From Styela clava (taxonomy: Eukaryota > Chordata > Ascidiacea > Stolidobranchia > Styelidae), in contig NC_135251.1 of the NCBI RefSeq assembly GCF_964204865.1, positions 14,942,001 to 15,006,000 of the forward strand: DNA of 64,000 nt, written 5' to 3'. Below the pieces are notes generated by a model. That model was not told the origin of the DNA and ran no database searches. It worked only from the letters and a program-made list of their open reading frames with translations. Position 1 is the stretch's first letter, and each line of letters begins with the position of its first letter. Positions 5,223-23,880 of this stretch are shown here, piece after piece. The translations under genes were made by a program, and so were the position numbers.

Positions 5223-5537
5223 CAAGGTTAATAATATTGTGCGATCTACGAATTTTATGATGTATTGGCCATCCATTGCACAGATAAGCACTAGTGATTG
5301 ATGCCTCTACAAGTGAGAATTTTGTGAATTGCGACTGCTATTATATTTCTCAGGTCCATCCGACTGTACTATCAAATTAAGTTGATTTACATCTCAAACA
5401 TCAATAATGTGATTTAAATTATATTGCACACTTTATTCATGTACTCAACCGTTAAAATTTGTAAATCCATGACATTTGTAACAAGGTATCCGAATAATTG
5501 CTTAAAAAATGATAGGAATTGTTATTGAGCAATGCCG
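5223..5537. other. Convergent TMEM19/GLYCTK intergenic region
   Basis: This 315-nt gap holds the 3' untranslated regions of both convergent genes. It contains a minus-strand poly(A) signal and, at 5450-5535, a degraded direct copy of the last coding bases of GLYCTK. No other gene is visible. Confidence 0.6.
5432..5437 (-). terminator. AATAAA poly(A) signal of GLYCTK
   Basis: AATAAA on the minus strand about 100 nt downstream of the GLYCTK stop codon. It is the only canonical signal in the gap on that strand. No matching AATAAA is seen on the plus strand for TMEM19. Confidence 0.55.
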
Positions 5538-5657
5538 TTAAAACCGTTGAATCGTTAAAATTTGTAAATCCATGACATTTGTTCCTGTAAGACCAGTTTT
5601 TAACAAGGTATCCGAATAATTGCTTAAAAAATGATAGGAATTGTTATTGAGCAATGC
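5450..5657. repeat. Imperfect tandem duplication of the GLYCTK 3' coding end
   Basis: The segment 5552-5657, which encodes the last part of GLYCTK, recurs as a direct copy at 5450-5535. The outer copy is near-identical but lacks 19 nt (the bases at about 5582-5600). The stop codon (5538-5540) lies between the copies, so the outer copy is in the 3' UTR and the protein is unaffected. Confidence 0.85.
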
Positions 5658-7640
5658 TTTTTCTGCTTGTGCTAAATCAGATGGGTCTGTGATAAAGTTA
5701 GAACTGCTATCAACAAAGGCTCCAGCAGAATCTGTAGGTCCATCCTGGCCATCTGTTCCACCAGAAAGAAAACAGAGATTGTAATCAATGTTTTTATAGT
5801 ACTTGAAAAGGTGAATTGCTGCAGCGAGTACCATTTCCTGGTTTCTACCACCTTTACCAGTTCCATTTACTGTAACTGTAGTTTCACCAGCAGCAATTAT
5901 GCAGATTTTGTGTAGAATTGGGTTGGAGCTAGTTATTGATTGATGTAACTTTCTGGCGAATCTATTGATATTAGATATCCATGGCCAGTTCTTGCTTTCA
6001 TATTTTCTGATAAGATGCTCGTATAGGAATTTAGTGAATTCTTCTTCGGTCTCTAAATGACGCTTTGTAATACATTCTATCACTTTGATCATGAATTCAA
6101 TTAGGAAAACACCGACATCTCTTGCTTCTCCTTCAACGCTTGAGGAAAGAACAAAAGCCATGTATCCCAACGTTTCTGCTTCCTTCAACGATGCGTTCAC
6201 AGCTACAGTATTTGAACCAACGAGGATATTTTGTACATGTTGTAGATCCCCTGGTTTATTTTGAACTGGATTTAGTAGAATCGTTTTTGCATCAGCGGAG
6301 ATATTGTTGTGTAAACCATATTTTTTCATTATTATTCTTGTTTGCTCAACATTGCTTTCCGTGCAAACTGTTGGGCCACTTGCAATTAGGTCTAATGGAT
6401 CTCCAATAATATCTGATAGGATTAAAGCGACCATCTGAAAAATTAAATTAACACTCTTAGTGACCTTAATATTATTTAATATAGATGCCCTCTCGCTCCA
6501 AACAAGCCTCTGCATAAGCAGCCACTTTATTTTAGAGGGGCATAATCTTTCAGTTTTGGCAATATATAGCCGTGAGGTGGTGGGCATGAGATTGAACCAG
6601 AGATTTTAGCCTGCCATCATATTTAAGGCTAAGCTATCCTACTATCCTCTGTAAATTCAATAATAAATATATTATAAGTTGTTTTCTCCTTCATACCTTA
6701 GATGGGTATGCAATTTGTGCTAATCCTCCTCCTTTCACTATAGATAGTGATCTTCGTATTATATTCAACTCTTGGATTGTTGCTCCTTGTTTTGCGAGAA
6801 ATGATGTAACACGCATTTTGTCATCTAGTGTCAATGGCGGAATAGGAGCGCAAAGAAGTGCAGACCCTCCTAATTATAAATTATTTCGATGATATTTCAT
6901 GATTCATGTATGAAGATTAAGGTTTTTATATTGTGCATACCTCCTGACACCAATGTTATAACTATGTCGTCTTTTGTTAAATCCCGTAACATAGCTATTA
7001 TTCTCTGAGTTGCACAAATGCAAGATTCGTCCGGAAGATTGTTAACTGCACCTTCACACATTGAGATTTTTCCATCTTTGTCTGGCAGGAGGAAGCTACA
7101 GAATTGATGAAAAAACATTTGGGTTAATTAATTATTACATGTAAGCCAGTGAAGTAGTTGGAAACAACAAATTATGGATGCTCCTAAATGCAACCACGGT
7201 GCTTATTCCCCATCATCCTACCAACCTTTTTCCTGCCTCTTCCAGAATTTTCGAAGTCCCTGAAGGTACACTGATTATTCCTCTAACCAGATGGTCTCCC
7301 AGCAGCTGTTGAACAGCCCTGCACATTCCTGATACTGCTTTTCCAAATCCAACTATATGCACATTGTGTCGCAAGTCATATGTTTTCGAGCCTAAAATGG
7401 AACCAGCGTTTACAAAGCAAACTGTCAAATCTGCATAGTAATTTAAACAACCGAAATGATTGTTATTTATGTTGTTAATTATGTATGCTGTTTGTTATTA
7501 CCTTATCCTTAACTCTAGCACTTACCAACAGCAAGTGTGTCTCCAAGTCTTTCCAAATTAGAGTGAACCAAAGCAGGGGGCAAAACTGCACCGATGGCAC
7601 TTTTGAAGATCCTTTGTGAAGCTTCTGCAGGCATTCTCAT
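5538..7640 (-). CDS. GLYCTK: D-glycerate 2-kinase (GLYCTK, MOFRL family), 5 exons
   Basis: Exons in coding order: 7526-7640, 7226-7430, 6941-7095, 6697-6869, 5538-6434. They total 1545 nt in consistent phase with GT-AG borders, giving 514 residues, close to the roughly 520 of vertebrate GLYCTK. The enzyme phosphorylates D-glycerate in serine and fructose catabolism. Visible family motifs are VGFGKAVSGM, LVSGGGSALLCAPIPP (about residue 155), KGGGLAQIAYPSK, LSDIIGDPLDLIASGPT, GGRNQEMVLAA, SGGTDGQDGPTDSAGAF (about 440) and the C-terminal TGLTGTNVMD. The start was placed at the first Met of the first recognisable exon because the next residues match the family N-terminus and an upstream in-frame stop is close. 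No clear mitochondrial targeting peptide is seen; a longer N-terminus on another exon cannot be excluded. Confidence 0.92.
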
Positions 7641-8459
7641 TTTGTTATGTATAGCATGAAGTAATAACCTACTTAGTGCATCGCCCCTATTTATTGAATT
7701 TTCAATGGGAAAGTAACTGTGCCCTTCAATATAATGATGTTGTTGTTACATTGTGTAATAAGAACTTATATTACTGGACAGCTTATCTACTACTACATAA
7801 CAATATTTGAACTATCCATGATGATAATTGGTTAAAGTTTTCAGCCAATTCAATTGCAGTCAACGATTAAATTTATATTTCAGCAATAAATACAGATTTT
7901 ATATATTATCAGTGAAACAATGTGAAAATGTAGAAAACCACAATTGCAGACACAAAGATAATGTATCTTATTGACCATGCTCATCGGAAACCATTACATT
8001 TACATAATAATAGAAAAACATCTAAATACCACCAAGCTATAACATAATGCAATCATTCTGAAGAAAAAGGTATAGTGAGTATATATGTGCCACAACAAAA
8101 TAAGGATTCAAACATGCTATCTGTTCTGATTTGCGGCAAGAAAAGGGTTTTCCCATGGGATAAGAAACAAGCTGATTTGGTTGAAGGATGTGGCAAAGTA
8201 CTGGCTAGTCAACATACTTTCCCACTTTTTGAACCAGGCATTCTCAATCGTGAATGAGATAACCAATAACTTGAGCAGTGTTTTCATCACCTGCTAATTG
8301 GCAAATTATAGCTTTTGGATTCCAAAGTTTTATATCTCATGGCATACTAAAGTTCTATTGCATCTCAAATAGTACACTATAAAATGGTTAGTATTGTGTG
8401 GCACCCTGTGGTTATCATTTTAGGCAGAGAAAAGCCCCTATTGCTACTAATGATTTTGG
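7641..8459. other. Intergenic region between GLYCTK and CHMP7
   Basis: About 0.8 kb holding the presumed GLYCTK promoter and 5' UTR on the minus strand and the CHMP7 3' UTR. A short plus-strand open frame at 8075-8257 has no splice context or motif and is taken as chance. Nothing else is recognised. Confidence 0.5.
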
Positions 8460-9863
8460 TCAGCTTGTAAGGCTAATTTTATGAGTATGATTTGTTTGAA
8501 CATTTCTTGTTGTAGTTTCTGTACGGCCAGGTGAATGAGTTGGTGGAATAGGAAGATCAACAATCCCTGGTTCAAGAGTAACCGTTGTCATTTTATTACA
8601 TATATCTTCTAAACCAATGGTATCTTTAGGACCGTTTATTAATGCAGCTAACTCTGTTTCTAAATCATCATCAGAAGTATTTTCACAGGATACTGGGGTA
8701 GAAATAATTTCACTGACTTCGGACTGGTTATCCAAAACATTTGCTACGTCATCCATTGTGCTTTGCACCACATCAAGTGAGAGTCCTTTTGAAGCCTTTT
8801 TATGAGCAGCAACAGCACTCTTATAAGTATCCATAAGCAATTTATCAGTTTTACATTGGTTTAAACTTTCTAACAGCTCTTCAATGTTGTTTAAATTTTG
8901 CTCTTTATTACTGAGTGATATTTCTAGTCTTTTCTTTTTCCGAAGTGCACCCAATGCCATGGTCCGTTGCTTGTTTTTAAGTAACTCCTTTGCTTTCTGA
9001 GTACAACTCTCCATTTCCTGGCAAGTGTTATTAATGGTCTGCTGCAAATGTGTTCTTGTTTCACAGAGCTGTAGTATTCCAATATCAACATCCGAAAATG
9101 GAATTACCTTTTTATTGCCAGGCTTTGCAAACTTGATATACTTCTCGCTCAAAGCAACATTATGATTGTTCTCAGCGGCTTGCTCGCTTATTAATTCATG
9201 TTTAGATTTAATTTCTACAATTCCTTTATTCTTCAGAGTGGCCAGCGTCAAATCCAAACTCTCTGTATCGCATAAAATAGTTTTGGTTATATCCTGTAAT
9301 TGCAAATAAGAAACAACATTCAGAAATTCATGATTATGTTCATTCTTCGAGGCATATTGATGGAATTTTGCCATCACTTCATTGCATTTGTGTTCCAATG
9401 CAGAAACAATAACAAACTGGCCCTTTTTCAGGTCCCGGCCTGATCTAGTTTTAATGGGACTGAGAACTTTATCAGCCATCCACGAAGCAGGTTTTTTAAC
9501 ACACCAATTCAACCCCCATCCTACCCAAGACTGATTAGCATGGATATCATGTGTATATTGTGCAGTTGGAACAATTTCCCCATTTTGGATCATATCATCA
9601 AAAACAGTTTGTAGTCCAAGTGGCCTTTTCCCTTGACGGGTTAAGTTGTTGAACAAGTTATCCCATGAGACATATCCATAAGGTAATTTTGCAGACATAT
9701 CTTGTATCAATTTTTTCCAAAACGCCATCTTGTTGTCCCAGTGATGAGGGTTAACCGATCTATCAGCCGGAAAAGCAGAAAACAAAAAATTCATGCGTTC
9801 ATCATCACCCCAACAATCTGTAAATTCTGATGGATGTGTGTTTGATTGCATCTTGTTATTCAT
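8460..9863 (-). CDS. CHMP7: CHMP7, ESCRT-III subunit, single coding exon
   Basis: An uninterrupted 467-codon frame; vertebrate CHMP7 is about 450 residues. The N-terminal half is the winged-helix (ESCRT-II-like) part; residues about 113-136 form a Trp-rich hydrophobic stretch (WVGWGLNW then KKPASWMADKVL) that fits the known membrane-binding loop. The C-terminal half (about 240-410) is a charged, helical SNF7/ESCRT-III core, with DVDIGILQLCETRTHLQQTI at its start and the acidic DDDLETELAALI helix near its end. The tail has a type-2 MIM-like LPIPP at about 436. CHMP7 nucleates ESCRT-III at the nuclear envelope and endosomes. The coding region has no intron. The ATG at 9863 lies 18 nt after a strong splice acceptor and overlaps the stop of the upstream gene by 8 nt. 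A second Met, codon 5, is an alternative start. Confidence 0.92.
   Translation of the reverse strand: MNNKMQSNTHPSEFTDCWGDDERMNFLFSAFPADRSVNPHHWDNKMAFWKKLIQDMSAKLPYGYVSWDNLFNNLTRQGKRPLGLQTVFDDMIQNGEIVPTAQYTHDIHANQSWVGWGLNWCVKKPASWMADKVLSPIKTRSGRDLKKGQFVIVSALEHKCNEVMAKFHQYASKNEHNHEFLNVVSYLQLQDITKTILCDTESLDLTLATLKNKGIVEIKSKHELISEQAAENNHNVALSEKYIKFAKPGNKKVIPFSDVDIGILQLCETRTHLQQTINNTCQEMESCTQKAKELLKNKQRTMALGALRKKKRLEISLSNKEQNLNNIEELLESLNQCKTDKLLMDTYKSAVAAHKKASKGLSLDVVQSTMDDVANVLDNQSEVSEIISTPVSCENTSDDDLETELAALINGPKDTIGLEDICNKMTTVTLEPGIVDLPIPPTHSPGRTETTTRNVQTNHTHKISLTS
9856..9863 (-). other. 8-nt overlap of two reading frames (stop/start junction)
   Basis: On the minus strand ATGAATAA serves as the CHMP7 start (ATG AAT AA.) and as the final codons of the upstream membrane-protein frame (CAT GAA TAA). 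It sits 18 nt inside an exon whose acceptor (TTCTATTCCAG at 9881-9891) matches the phase of the upstream gene. This layout fits a dicistronic mRNA with reinitiation, or an operon in which the same acceptor also receives a spliced leader for CHMP7. Confidence 0.65.
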
Positions 9864-11972
9864 GTTTTTTCAAATTCTGCCTGGAATAGAAATACCAATT
9901 TTAAATGAATGCATGTCAATGATAAACATTATCTGTGTTATTCTTATCCCAACGATGGTAAAAACCATCTAATACACGTTCCTGGATGGGTCATGGGTCA
10001 CATACCATTGGAAGTTTTATTTCACACCATTTACATGAAAACAAATCCCATAGAAGTATTTCAAAGAGTTGAAAAATGTAGCTTTTTCCTACATTTGTTA
10101 TTTAACACAAAAACAAAATTATTTAAAAGAAGAGATGAATTATATCAATTTTCAAAGCAGGCCATAAGCGCAACAAAAAGCAGTAGTTGCAAGCATACCT
10201 TGAATAACAGTTTAATGTTGTAGCTGAATACCGTGACTTTGACAATTTAGATTCCAGAATCTTACCTGTAAAAAGAGATACAAACGTTAAAACGTTATTT
10301 ATTGGTTTACTTTTCAATAGGGTATAGTTTCCCAATCCAATCGCACATTTGGAACTATCTTGAAATCTCTTTTCGAGCAATGTAAGAATCCCTAATAACA
10401 TTATAACTACCTAATATGTATGCCATATAATATTTATTTGGTCAACTTCACAAATACTTAAACTATTGCTTAGGCCAGGGTTACTCAACTGGCGGACCGC
10501 GGTCCGAATCCGGACCTTTCGACCATTCAATTTGGACCGCGTCTGCTTGTATATTTTGCATTATAAGTATCGTTTCAGATGATTTTGATACAATTTAAAT
10601 ACAAAGCTACCGATGCGCGACATCTGTGTCCATATTTGTGAGCCATTCATTGCTCTTGTATTTAATATTGCATTTGAAGTTTCGTTTATTTAATAAAATA
10701 AATTTTTTGTAATGTCTGGACCCCAGTAATTTTGAAGTTTTCTAAACGGACCTTTGGTGAAAATAGTTGAGTAGCCCTGGCTTAGGCTACAGAATCTGAC
10801 AATAGCAAATAATTCTTACTGTCGGGGGTTAGTAACTTGCTGATTGCATGCCCATTCACTTTCCAAGCAATAAATATTAAAATAATCAACAAAGCAACAA
10901 GGACGAGTTCAATCATCAAAACTTTTATTTGCCAATCCTCAGAATCCCATGCAGTTTTAAGCTGAAAACAAATTTAGAGTTTGCAATTGTATTTAAGCTT
11001 GATGGGATAAGATTTACATATTTATCCCGGGGAAGAGAAAGACAATAAAAAAAGGCTCAATCATATAGCGAACCATGGTCTCTCGTCTGGTAACTGGTTA
11101 CCAGTCAATATCGGGTATGGGATCAGTTAGCCAGTTGTATGTTTTAGATGCACAGACTTGATGGTAGAGGAAGCCATAACTGACCAACGGTTTCATGAAC
11201 CACCCTATGGCAGCGAGGAGTTCAGCAATCCTCATGCACATAATTATCCCTCATAGGATTAAAGCCTGCGAACCCACGCAAGGCGAGCTTATTCCTAACA
11301 CTTAGCATAAAGCGCCACACAGCAAAAACACATCAAAACTATCTTTAATTCATGTTGGAGGAAATCTATTTCAACTTCTAATCATGCTGGCTCCTTGAGA
11401 GTATAAACAATATCGTATCCATTGTATCAGCAAAAATTGCTTGTGTCAAAGCATTTAAATTTAAGAATTGAACTCTGTGACATATCTGAACATAAACGTT
11501 GGATTTCATATAAATAACAGTTAAGTTAGGAAGGGATTGGATTGACTTCCAGATAGAGCTCAATATACTGATATATTTTCATATATCCGTATATAAGGCA
11601 AATAATATTAAATGAAGTGGCTTTCCATCTGCTATTGATTATAGTCCTAGAATATACTCAATATCTCAGAGATTGTACAGAGTTTGTTAAAAATGAGAGG
11701 ACTACTGATTACTACAGTACCGGTAACAGTTGAACTGGAAATACAATTTGCAAGATTCCACTGATTTGCCGAGATTTACAAATGAACTTCTTGCTCAAGT
11801 TTGGAAAAAGACCGATAGGGTGAATATGATAGTCATGTCTGCATGTACAAAAATACTGGCATAATTTAGCCTGTTAACGTACCTCTTTTTTCAGGTTCTC
11901 ATAAGCTGCCGTTACATTGGTCAAAGTCAGTTGAGCATCAGTCTTTTCCCACAAGGAATCAAAATAATTCAT
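9856..11972 (-). CDS. Small single-pass membrane protein upstream of and overlapping CHMP7, 4 exons
   Basis: Exons in coding order: 11883-11972, 10820-10961, 10199-10265, 9856-9880. All borders are GT-AG and phases agree, giving 107 residues. The N-terminus (about 45 residues, with an N-glycosylation sequon NVT) is followed by one strong transmembrane helix (VLMIELVLVALLIILIFIAW, about 50-69) and a basic, Ser-rich tail. The last exon contributes only the end of the tail, and its TAA lies inside the CHMP7 start (the shared 8 nt are ATGAATAA). I do not recognise the protein; one-helix carriers such as SLC51B share the layout but no convincing motif. The open frame extends about 27 codons above the chosen Met without another ATG, so an upstream exon is possible. 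If exon 3 were not spliced, the frame would run about 19 more codons, a possible alternative C-terminus. Confidence 0.68.
10476..10779. mobile_element. 304-bp hAT-type MITE with perfect 8-bp target duplication
   Basis: Terminal inverted repeats CAGGGTTACTCAACT (left) and CAGGGCTACTCAACT (right, reverse complement) differ by one base. GCTTAGGC flanks both ends (10468-10475 and 10780-10787). The CAG start and 8-bp duplication are diagnostic of hAT. It has no coding capacity and lies in intron 2 of the small membrane-protein gene. Confidence 0.93.
11000..11325 (-). repeat. tRNA-derived SINE, copy 1
   Basis: About 320 bp shared with 28070-28385 and, partly, 19890-20012. Read on the minus strand, the head has an A-box-like GCTAAGTGTTAGGA followed by a B-box-like region (GGGTTCGCAGG, here decayed) as in a tRNA. 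The tail ends in short GGAT-rich repeats. It lies in intron 1 of the small membrane-protein gene. Confidence 0.7.
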
Positions 11973-16771: not shown

Positions 16772-19180
16772 TCAGCAATGGTGCCATTGCCAGGGCACAG
16801 CACCTTCCCCTGCAAAGTAGTTGGCAAAGGTGTTGCGAACAGATTGTGCGCTCTGTGTTGCACGGCCACCACTCCCGGGTATGTCATGCAGCAGTTGAGT
16901 GGACACTGTAATATTATCGTCAACTGGTGCAGCCCCAGCAACATCTCTTCTCAAAAAATTGTGTAGGCAGCATGTTGCCTTTATGACAGAGTCGATATTG
17001 CTGGGCTTCAATGGTATTGGTCTGTGATAGACTCTCCACTGATTAGCTAAGATGCCAAATGTGCTCTCTACCATTCTTCTTGCCCGCGATAGGCGATAAT
17101 TAAAGATTCTTTTCTCCTGCGAGAGACCATTGCCAGGAAATGGTCTCATCAGATTTTCTTTCAAGGGAAAGGCTTCATCCCCAATGAATACGAACGGAAC
17201 AGTAGGTCCATCCGTTACTGGCAATGGCCTGAAAATAAATTTGCCCTATTTAGCCAGAAATACAAAATGAGGTTTAGGTAGGAGGTTTTTCTGCATAAAC
17301 ATGCTTCATTTTTATGGGTTATTACTAAGTTGTTAAAATAATAAGCCTTTATTACTTAGGTGTAAAGAAAAATCATAGCCTGTTTCGTTATAGAAAAAAA
17401 CATCAGCAGTCATTTTCAAGTCTAGGTGGACTACTAGCTTAAATAACCCACCTTGGTGAGGGTAGACTCAAGGTTCCATTCTGCAGGCGACGGCCAAAAC
17501 ACGAGTTCGCAAATATTCCCCCATCGCTTGCTCTGCCATAGGCGCCAATGTCCACCGCAAGAAATTTATAACTGAAAAATATGAATTTCATTGAATTCTT
17601 GATGGCACTGTTTGGAATAAATGCCCATGTATAATCCACATAATATTGGGAAATAATTGGTTTCTAATTTATTTAGCCATTCATAGAAAGCAACCACAAG
17701 TGGTAAGTTACAAAAATTGTTTACCTATGAATACAAATTAGTGTGATACAAAATCAGGTTTAATATTTACCATGCATCAACGATAGCCAGGAGCACAATG
17801 CTATGCGTTTTTTTGTAATTGTAATACAACGATCCAGCATTGCTAGGACATTTAACAACAACATGCTTTCCATCAATAGCGCCCAAACAGTTTGGAAATT
17901 GCCATTTTTTGTGAAAAACATCGGCAACCTCAGTCCATTCGGAACAACTTGATGGGCATTTGAGGAAATCCCCTCTCAATGCATCCCATATTGCAGAACA
18001 TGTTTCTGAGACAATGTTGCTCACAGTTGATATGCCAAGACGATAGCTGTTAGCTATAGTTCTATAGCTATCGCCAGTAGCTAAGAATCTGAAAAAATGA
18101 AAGATAAAGTAAAGCAATTGACACATTATGTAATAATAAATAACAAAATATGCTCATGTGTGAATGAATTTATAAATAATAGTCTATCATAAAATGGAAA
18201 CATATTTTTATATGCGGCCAATGGCAAACACGAGTGCACATTATTATCAGATACAAGCTGATTACTGTGATGTTTATCCCTGGATATACAAATGTTTGTA
18301 TTTGCTATCTGAATAAGTGTTTCTTAACCTGTTATATCATAGACATAAACTTCTGAATAGCTCATCCATATTTTTGGTTTCACAAAGTGATATAATGAAC
18401 CGCTTTTGCTAACTTATCAGCTAATGTACCTCAATGTTACTGCAATTCTCTCTTCTGGTGGTATCGGCTTCCTGAATGCTGTAGCTTGTTTACTTATAAC
18501 AGGCCCAACTAAAGTTATTAAAATTTGAAAGTCTTCGACTGACATGCGGAGGTAGGTCTCAAAATAGCTTCTCCTCTCCAATCTCATCTCTTTCAAAAGC
18601 CTGTGGTACTCGCCTGTTAACGTTACAATATTCAGATATTACCCGTTAAGGTACCGGTAATCATTCAATATGATATATATTTTCAAACCTCTCAAATACT
18701 ACTTTTTGCACTAAAATGAGCTGTAGACTATCAGTAGAGGGTACCGTAATACTACAGTACTATGATAAGCACTGTCCAGACTGTCAGAACACCTTTCAGC
18801 TTTTTAACTACTGAACTAGATCAAATACCTGAATACTGGAATATGGCACCGGTCTAAAGGGCTAGTATGGTATGTTAACTGTTAAATCTAGAACCATGTA
18901 AGTAGCAAATTCTGTTTATTACAAACGGCTAGAAATACGGTGCAGTCGTATACGTACCGTACCGGTACCCAGGTACGGTACCGTACCGGTACTGGGGTAC
19001 GGTAGGCCTACCTACTGCTGTACTGTGAAAATACTGCAATACTGGTACCGTACCTCTAGTCTCTCTTCTCTGCAAAATAGGATGCACCCACCACCTTCTT
19101 CTTTTGCATCTATTTTTTTTATCCTTGCGTCTTTTCAGCCACAACAGTAATCCCAATTTTTGATGTTTGCTCAAAGCCAT
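16772..19180 (-). CDS. PIF/Harbinger DDE transposase (HARBI1/ALP1-like), 5 exons, intact
   Basis: Exons in coding order: 19054-19180, 18430-18613, 17771-18088, 17452-17571, 16772-17228. All borders are GT-AG, phases agree, and there are no internal stops: 401 residues. The N-terminus has the family RRRWWVHPILQRRETRGEYH and LLKEMRLERRSYFETYLRMS segments. A helix-turn-helix (FLATGDSYRTIANSYRLGIS) follows at 105-124. The catalytic triad is visible: D176 in LGAIDGKHV, D226 in GAYGRASDGGIF and E304 in RRMVESTFGIL. The start is the first Met before the conserved N-terminus; the frame stays open upstream into the terminal-repeat region. The enzyme would cut and paste the surrounding element. All features look functional, unlike its MADF partner. 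Confidence 0.92.
18950..19045. repeat. Cluster of GTACCGGTAC palindromes
   Basis: Within about 95 bp there are repeated overlapping blocks of GTACCGGTAC, GGTACGGTACC and TACCGTAC, inside intron 1 of the Harbinger transposase. Single copies of the same palindrome are scattered over the window (for example about 12460, 26215, 27430, 41175, 48100, 48550, 54777). Confidence 0.7.

Positions 19181-21789: not shown

Positions 21790-23880
<2,091 letters not shown>

Follow-up and report, generated by a model that had tools for sequence, protein, structure and literature searches.

In the ascidian Styela clava, a 64,000-nucleotide (nt) stretch of contig NC_135251.1 (positions 14,942,001 to 15,006,000; hereafter the window, with positions counted from its first letter) carries on its minus strand two genes that share an exon, one for a small membrane protein that is most likely a divergent relative of TCTA and one for the ESCRT-III protein CHMP7 (Table 1). 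The four exons of the TCTA-like gene, described in an earlier prediction made from the letters of the window (the original prediction), have GT...AG at the borders of all three introns (921, 554 and 318 nt) and join to 324 nt, that is, 107 codons plus TAA. The resulting product of 107 amino acids is 100% identical over its full length to the NCBI entry "uncharacterized protein LOC120336690 [Styela clava]", and the public annotation has thus modelled the same three junctions, including the one from 10199 to 9880; the name of this record specifies no isoform, a sign that the annotation may treat CHMP7 as a gene of its own. The exon that begins at 9880 runs into the open frame 9863-8460 and carries the whole of CHMP7, whose coding region lacks introns and whose ATG, the first of that exon, starts at its nucleotide 18. 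At 9863-9856 the letters ATGAATAA serve both as the TCTA stop and as the CHMP7 start, and the exon structure, the shared exon and the overlap of the original prediction were borne out. With an 8-nt overlap on the same strand, the two coding frames lie within the spacing of <100 bp by which tunicate spliced-leader operons are recognized. Only two AGs, ending at 9881 and 9877, occur within 50 nt ahead of the CHMP7 ATG, which places the acceptor where a trans-spliced gene would need one. An in-frame fusion of TCTA and CHMP7 through an acceptor shifted by 3 or 4 nt was ruled out, as stops follow, and the window gave 0 matches to Rfam at gathering scores.

Table 1. Features of the TCTA-like/CHMP7 locus of Styela clava (positions within the window)
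Feature	Position	Strand	Description
TCTA-like exon 1, coding part	11883..11972	-	90 nt; ATG 11972-11970; donor GTACGT
TCTA-like exon 2	10820..10961	-	142 nt; encodes the transmembrane helix; end phase 1
TCTA-like exon 3	10199..10265	-	67 nt; donor GTATGC, phase 2
Intron 3	9881..10198	-	318 nt, 39% T; acceptor 17 nt ahead of CHMP7 ATG
TCTA-like exon 4, coding part	9856..9880	-	25 nt including stop; ends LKKHE-stop, TAA 9858-9856
Overlap of the two frames	9856..9863	-	8 nt ATGAATAA: CHMP7 start and TCTA stop
CHMP7 coding frame	8460..9863	-	467 codons, no intron

The overlap of stop and start by itself is neither rare nor remarkable. A configuration of this type, with an open frame over the preceding six codons, is found at 79 of the 2482 ATGs (3.2%) on both strands of the window, and for this reason we do not use the overlap as a sign of coupling. 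The 8-nt overlap in Styela places stop and start as they are placed where termination and restart are coupled; a true dicistronic mRNA could accordingly be envisaged, on which ribosomes would end at the UAA of TCTA and restart at the overlapping AUG of CHMP7. However, a first frame of 107 codons is long for restart in animal mRNAs, and an overlap of a type this frequent in the window needs no such explanation. Although annotated fly pairs with overlapping frames (18 pairs) have 26 of their 36 genes on polycistronic transcripts (PMC4528330; here and below, statements on published work refer to those parts of the cited papers that were available), we consider termination and restart an improbable account of the Styela locus.

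The small protein, which the original prediction had called unrecognised, appears to be a TCTA homologue. The Pfam family TCTA (PF15128) matches it with 21.5 bits (E 2e-4), which is below the family cut-off of 27, and we therefore describe it as a divergent homologue on the basis of further features and not as a member of the Pfam family. A two-row profile, consisting of the Styela protein and a human TCTA, retrieved 90 other proteins at E <= 1; the named proteins among them, apart from one hypothetical protein, carry TCTA in their name and are all mammalian, and many rows are nameless. Since mammalian TCTA made up half of the query, the search supplied TCTA sequences and constitutes no proof of a link. 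As a test, a profile was built from the 29 of these 90 TCTAs that have a complete C-terminus, leaving out the Styela row. It scored the Styela protein at 18.1 bits, and the best of 1000 shuffles reached 9.3. When the Styela protein was aligned with nine of the 90 TCTAs, 12 columns were invariant, including a C-terminal K, H and E, and the single transmembrane helix is preceded by conserved L, E, W and D and has conserved W, G and L at its end. Hydropathy of the Styela protein peaks at 3.3 over residues 44-62, and a predicted structure places a helix at residues 40-74 with low confidence (predicted local distance difference test, pLDDT, 60.7). A match to Synaptobrevin (PF00957, E 0.049, 13.9 bits, cut-off 26.4) was rejected as a generic helix match. 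The original prediction had also proposed a protein search with the 107-residue product; as sole query this recovered itself and nothing else among 57 candidates, and a sequence search of PDB returned no match at E <= 0.1. Its description of the role of the protein as unknown stands in part, as the role of the TCTA family is little known; according to a 2010 review, human osteoclast formation needs TCTA for cell fusion (PMC4033988).

Gene structure is a stronger argument for a TCTA identity than the profile score, with the qualification that the mammalian intron phases were deduced from protein isoforms and not from genes. In 85 of the 90 TCTAs (77 with a first motif, 85 with a looser one) the distance from the A (or T) of an AW motif to the end of the residues YHRP is 16 residues, and the other 5 are without YHRP. 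The TCTA isoforms diverge directly after YHRP. In 78 of the 85 the next residue is one of G, D, V, A and E, amino acids whose codons all begin with G and thus fit a phase-1 intron following a G. An S takes this place in the other 7 (6 named marsupials and 1 nameless protein), where the intron seemingly lies about 2 codons later. Counted from the A of AW, intron 2 of the Styela gene likewise comes after 16 residues and in phase 1, as deduced for the 78 TCTAs. For the last mammalian intron, codon enumeration points to phase 2 within a W codon (TG/G, the slash marking the intron) in the isoforms P0051 and P0066, and P0065 is alike; these three are rodent isoforms that seemingly lack the middle exon. 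The last Styela intron (AG/G) has the same phase. The last exon encodes 13 residues ending in LKTHRE in mammals versus 7 ending in LKKHE in Styela, which are similar and not identical; the C-terminus [LIMF]KTH[RK]E occurs in 29 of the 90 TCTA proteins, whereas the 61 others end differently and are further isoforms, fragments, or frames that continue into an intron. Because one intron matches in position and phase, the last intron matches in phase and the C-termini are similar, the exon that the TCTA-like gene has in common with CHMP7 probably belonged to TCTA from early on, as its last exon. The use of exon 4 also bears on a more conventional operon, in which intron 3 would be retained and polyadenylation within it would give a TCTA with a longer tail, CHMP7 would be trans-spliced at 9880, and one precursor would yield both mRNAs. 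The TCTA frame is open to 10123 and an AATAAA follows about 100 nt further on (10021). However, the three introns (1793 nt) hold four AATAAA, so that one at this place is unremarkable, and it is exon 4 that the NCBI model includes and that gives the C-terminal match; we regard such a retained intron as very unlikely. As a separate observation, intron 2 holds a 304-bp element (10476-10779; region 10468-10787) that has the terminal inverted repeats CAGGG(T/C)TACTCAACT and is flanked on both sides by the 8-bp direct repeat GCTTAGGC. It looks like a non-autonomous element of what we take to be the hAT type.

The long frame was correctly predicted to encode CHMP7. Its C-terminus contains a Snf7 domain (PF03357; E 1.2e-22, 80.8 bits, cut-off 27.3), and it is 36% identical to a CHMP7-like protein of Ciona. 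The CHMP7 winged-helix family PF25239 (cut-off 27) scores 22.7 bits in Styela, and the CHMP7-like proteins of Ciona (21.2) and Phallusia (25.2) are also below the cut-off. Six PDB matches were obtained, which are named SNF7, GH13992p, or a fusion with GH13992p. Five relatives of 44-51% identity are each encoded, in full or almost so, by one frame on assembled contigs of 1,859-21,538 bases; since these contigs may be transcripts, only the longest (21,538 bases) hints at an intronless gene elsewhere. The CHMP7 alignment gave 18 pattern matches in viral_contigs and 9 in genome_contigs, none of them a relative by tblastn. When the start positions were compared from the proteins only, three of eight relatives (P0004, P0005 and P0006, the last two being mutually close) began in the same register as Styela, and their first codons (M-N-E, M-T-D and M-T-D) would, with a T as the last letter of the second codon, allow the TCTA frame to stop where it does in Styela, which is compatible with a conserved overlap and no more. 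As for the remaining relatives, P0003 and P0008 start later, P0009 starts earlier, P0007 has no N-terminus, and P0010, from Antedon, presumably a crinoid, has a shorter one. The database row for Styela CHMP7 (P0002, 463 residues) begins at the second ATG (M5; region 9851-9863); among the relatives, the first ATG corresponds in register to the start of the three mentioned, and the second to that of one, Ciona. A literature search for CHMP7 together with TCTA matched a single paper, a breast-cancer signature study.

Operons without spacers are documented in tunicates. By one count, Ciona has 1310 candidate operons with directly abutted genes, and single-exon genes represent 38% in operons versus 15% outside (PMC2760879), while a later analysis found an intercistronic region in only 44 of 1172 predicted operons (PMC7986045). 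In addition, cis- and trans-splicing in Ciona can compete for one and the same acceptor, and this has been linked to weak first donors (PMC11155486). Trans-splicing is also cited as described in Botryllus schlosseri (PMC3691228), which belongs to the same family as Styela, the Styelidae, according to taxonomy; a search for papers on Styela clava and a spliced leader found none. A tightly linked gene pair of Botryllus, however, gave rare linked transcripts, and its second gene lacked a spliced leader; polymerase read-through was the interpretation that the authors preferred (PMC3691228). The comparison with tunicate operons in the original prediction appears reasonable, given the directly abutted pairs of Ciona and its acceptors shared with a cis partner.

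From the anatomy of the locus and from these papers on Ciona and Botryllus, we lean, if only modestly, towards the view that the Styela locus is a two-gene tunicate unit with one transcript, in which the acceptor at 9880 is cis-spliced for TCTA and trans-spliced to a spliced leader for CHMP7. A promoter upstream of 11972, which we infer to be common to both genes, would give rise to a single pre-mRNA. Cis-splicing of intron 3 (10199 to 9880) would produce an mRNA that encodes TCTA and has CHMP7 as its 3' part; since the TCTA stop lies within the last exon, no junction would lie downstream of the stop. Joining of a spliced leader to the acceptor at 9880 would instead produce an mRNA that encodes CHMP7 alone, with 17 nt of leader of its own. 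The two outcomes would be mutually exclusive for each pre-mRNA, and a precursor that yields CHMP7 could not yield this form of TCTA. More tentatively, the acceptor may act as a cis/trans switch at which competition of the donors on a single precursor sets the ratio of TCTA to CHMP7, in an arrangement common to other tunicates. We think this extension rather doubtful; for sharing with other tunicates there is a hint, in that the CHMP7 of three of eight relatives starts in the same register, while that of five does not. Co-transcription, and the functional locking of the membrane protein to nuclear-envelope repair that the original prediction had proposed, are both inferred.

Alternatively, CHMP7 may be transcribed separately, from a promoter of its own that lies within intron 3 of TCTA or close to it. 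The two genes would then overlap in DNA, and the TCTA mRNA would have CHMP7 sequence as its 3' end or become joined to it through occasional read-through. The 318-nt intron 3 could house a start site, and the rare joint transcripts of the Botryllus pair, without a spliced leader, would fit such a situation (PMC3691228), as would the 45 of 159 dicistronic loci of Drosophila in which each of the two genes has a supported monocistronic transcript (PMC4528330). In contrast, the Styela acceptor lies merely 17 nt ahead of the CHMP7 ATG, and 1158 of 1599 downstream operon genes in Ciona have 5'-full-length expressed sequence tags, which according to the authors is consistent with resolution by trans-splicing (PMC2760879). 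On balance we find an own promoter for CHMP7 unlikely.

Several points nevertheless weigh against a common unit resolved at acceptor 9880. The residues of exon 4 contribute nothing to the TCTA profile score (17.9 bits without exon 4); with a Pfam score below the cut-off in addition, the assignment of exon 4 to TCTA rests on the intron phase, a C-terminus that matches over a short stretch, and the NCBI annotation. The donor of intron 3, GTATGC, appears ordinary when judged by eye and without a score, whereas the Ciona cases show weak donors, and trans-splicing at a cis acceptor in Ciona involves the first acceptor of the gene, whereas in Styela it would involve that of the third intron (PMC11155486). 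Likewise, the Botryllus pair discussed above lies close together and has no spliced leader on its second gene. The Ciona leader, with up to 2 mismatches allowed (<=2), does not occur in the window, which says little.

Compared with known systems, the shared acceptor of Styela is a variant of the tunicate operons without intergenic DNA and of the fly dicistronic genes with overlapping frames, and the biology is most likely that of a tunicate operon of slightly unusual build. To our knowledge, flies do not have a spliced leader. In dicistronic genes of Drosophila the frames of different genes overlap by a few nt, as in Styela, and the transcripts there are mostly polycistronic (PMC4528330); unlike in our proposal, the second fly frame needs internal initiation or resumed scanning, and no spliced leader is involved. 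With the Ciona operons that lack intergenic DNA, the Styela locus shares the common strand, the absence of a spacer, an intronless coding region in the downstream gene and an acceptor immediately ahead of its ATG (PMC2760879, PMC7986045). However, in these operons the upstream gene ends where the downstream gene begins, whereas the Styela acceptor is that of the last intron of the upstream gene, the frames overlap and the leader is putative. The proposed use of one acceptor for which cis and trans donors compete is known from the Ciona genes termed TS-1stAS (PMC11155486), where, in contrast to Styela, both products derive from one gene; in Styela two proteins with no relation to each other would result, and the intron concerned is the third. 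Similar to the Styela pair, neighbouring genes without an intercistronic region are found in the SL1-type operons of nematodes (PMC9258526). Those are described as directly adjacent genes, whereas Styela has a shared exon and overlapping frames. Another ESCRT-III gene, did-2, which we take to be CHMP1, may be mentioned here. In Caenorhabditis briggsae, 1 bp separates its counterpart from the adjacent gene, and the two may form an SL1-type operon (PMC9258526). A shared acceptor combined with overlapping frames is not described in the available parts of PMC2760879, PMC7986045, PMC11155486, PMC3691228, PMC4528330 and PMC1657053, and its existence in print is not excluded.

The gene next downstream of CHMP7, presumably a glycerate kinase gene, encodes MOFRL and DUF4147 domains and has its likely ATG at 7640 (region 7640-8460). 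After the CHMP7 stop, the first AATAAA is found at 7695, 55 nt ahead of this ATG, and the AGs between the two end at 7687, 7672 and 7669; no AATAAA, ATTAAA or AGTAAA precedes it, and TATAAA occurs at 8334, 7903 and 7877. The gene could be a third cistron, and the proposed unit would then perhaps comprise three genes. Its final coding stretch appears, by eye, to be duplicated directly past its stop (5460-5660). Further away, a gene on the minus strand with four RRM stretches and an MLLE domain (21790-23793), a single open frame of 667 codons from stop to stop, is presumably poly(A)-binding-protein-like. Between it and the TCTA-like gene, two DDE_Tnp_4 frames (16772-18153; E 1.9e-18 and, below the cut-off, 1.8e-4) represent pieces of transposase.

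Since overlaps of stop and start occur both at other ATGs of the window and in fly genes (PMC4528330), the frame overlap is unremarkable, and it is the sharing of an exon that is the interesting part of the locus. With the identification proposed here, a protein that NCBI lists as uncharacterized gains a likely name, as a TCTA-like protein in a tunicate and a representative of a family of little known function. If the acceptor is shared in the way we propose, the resolution of a tunicate operon would not only cut a transcript into its genes but could also force a choice between two unrelated proteins.

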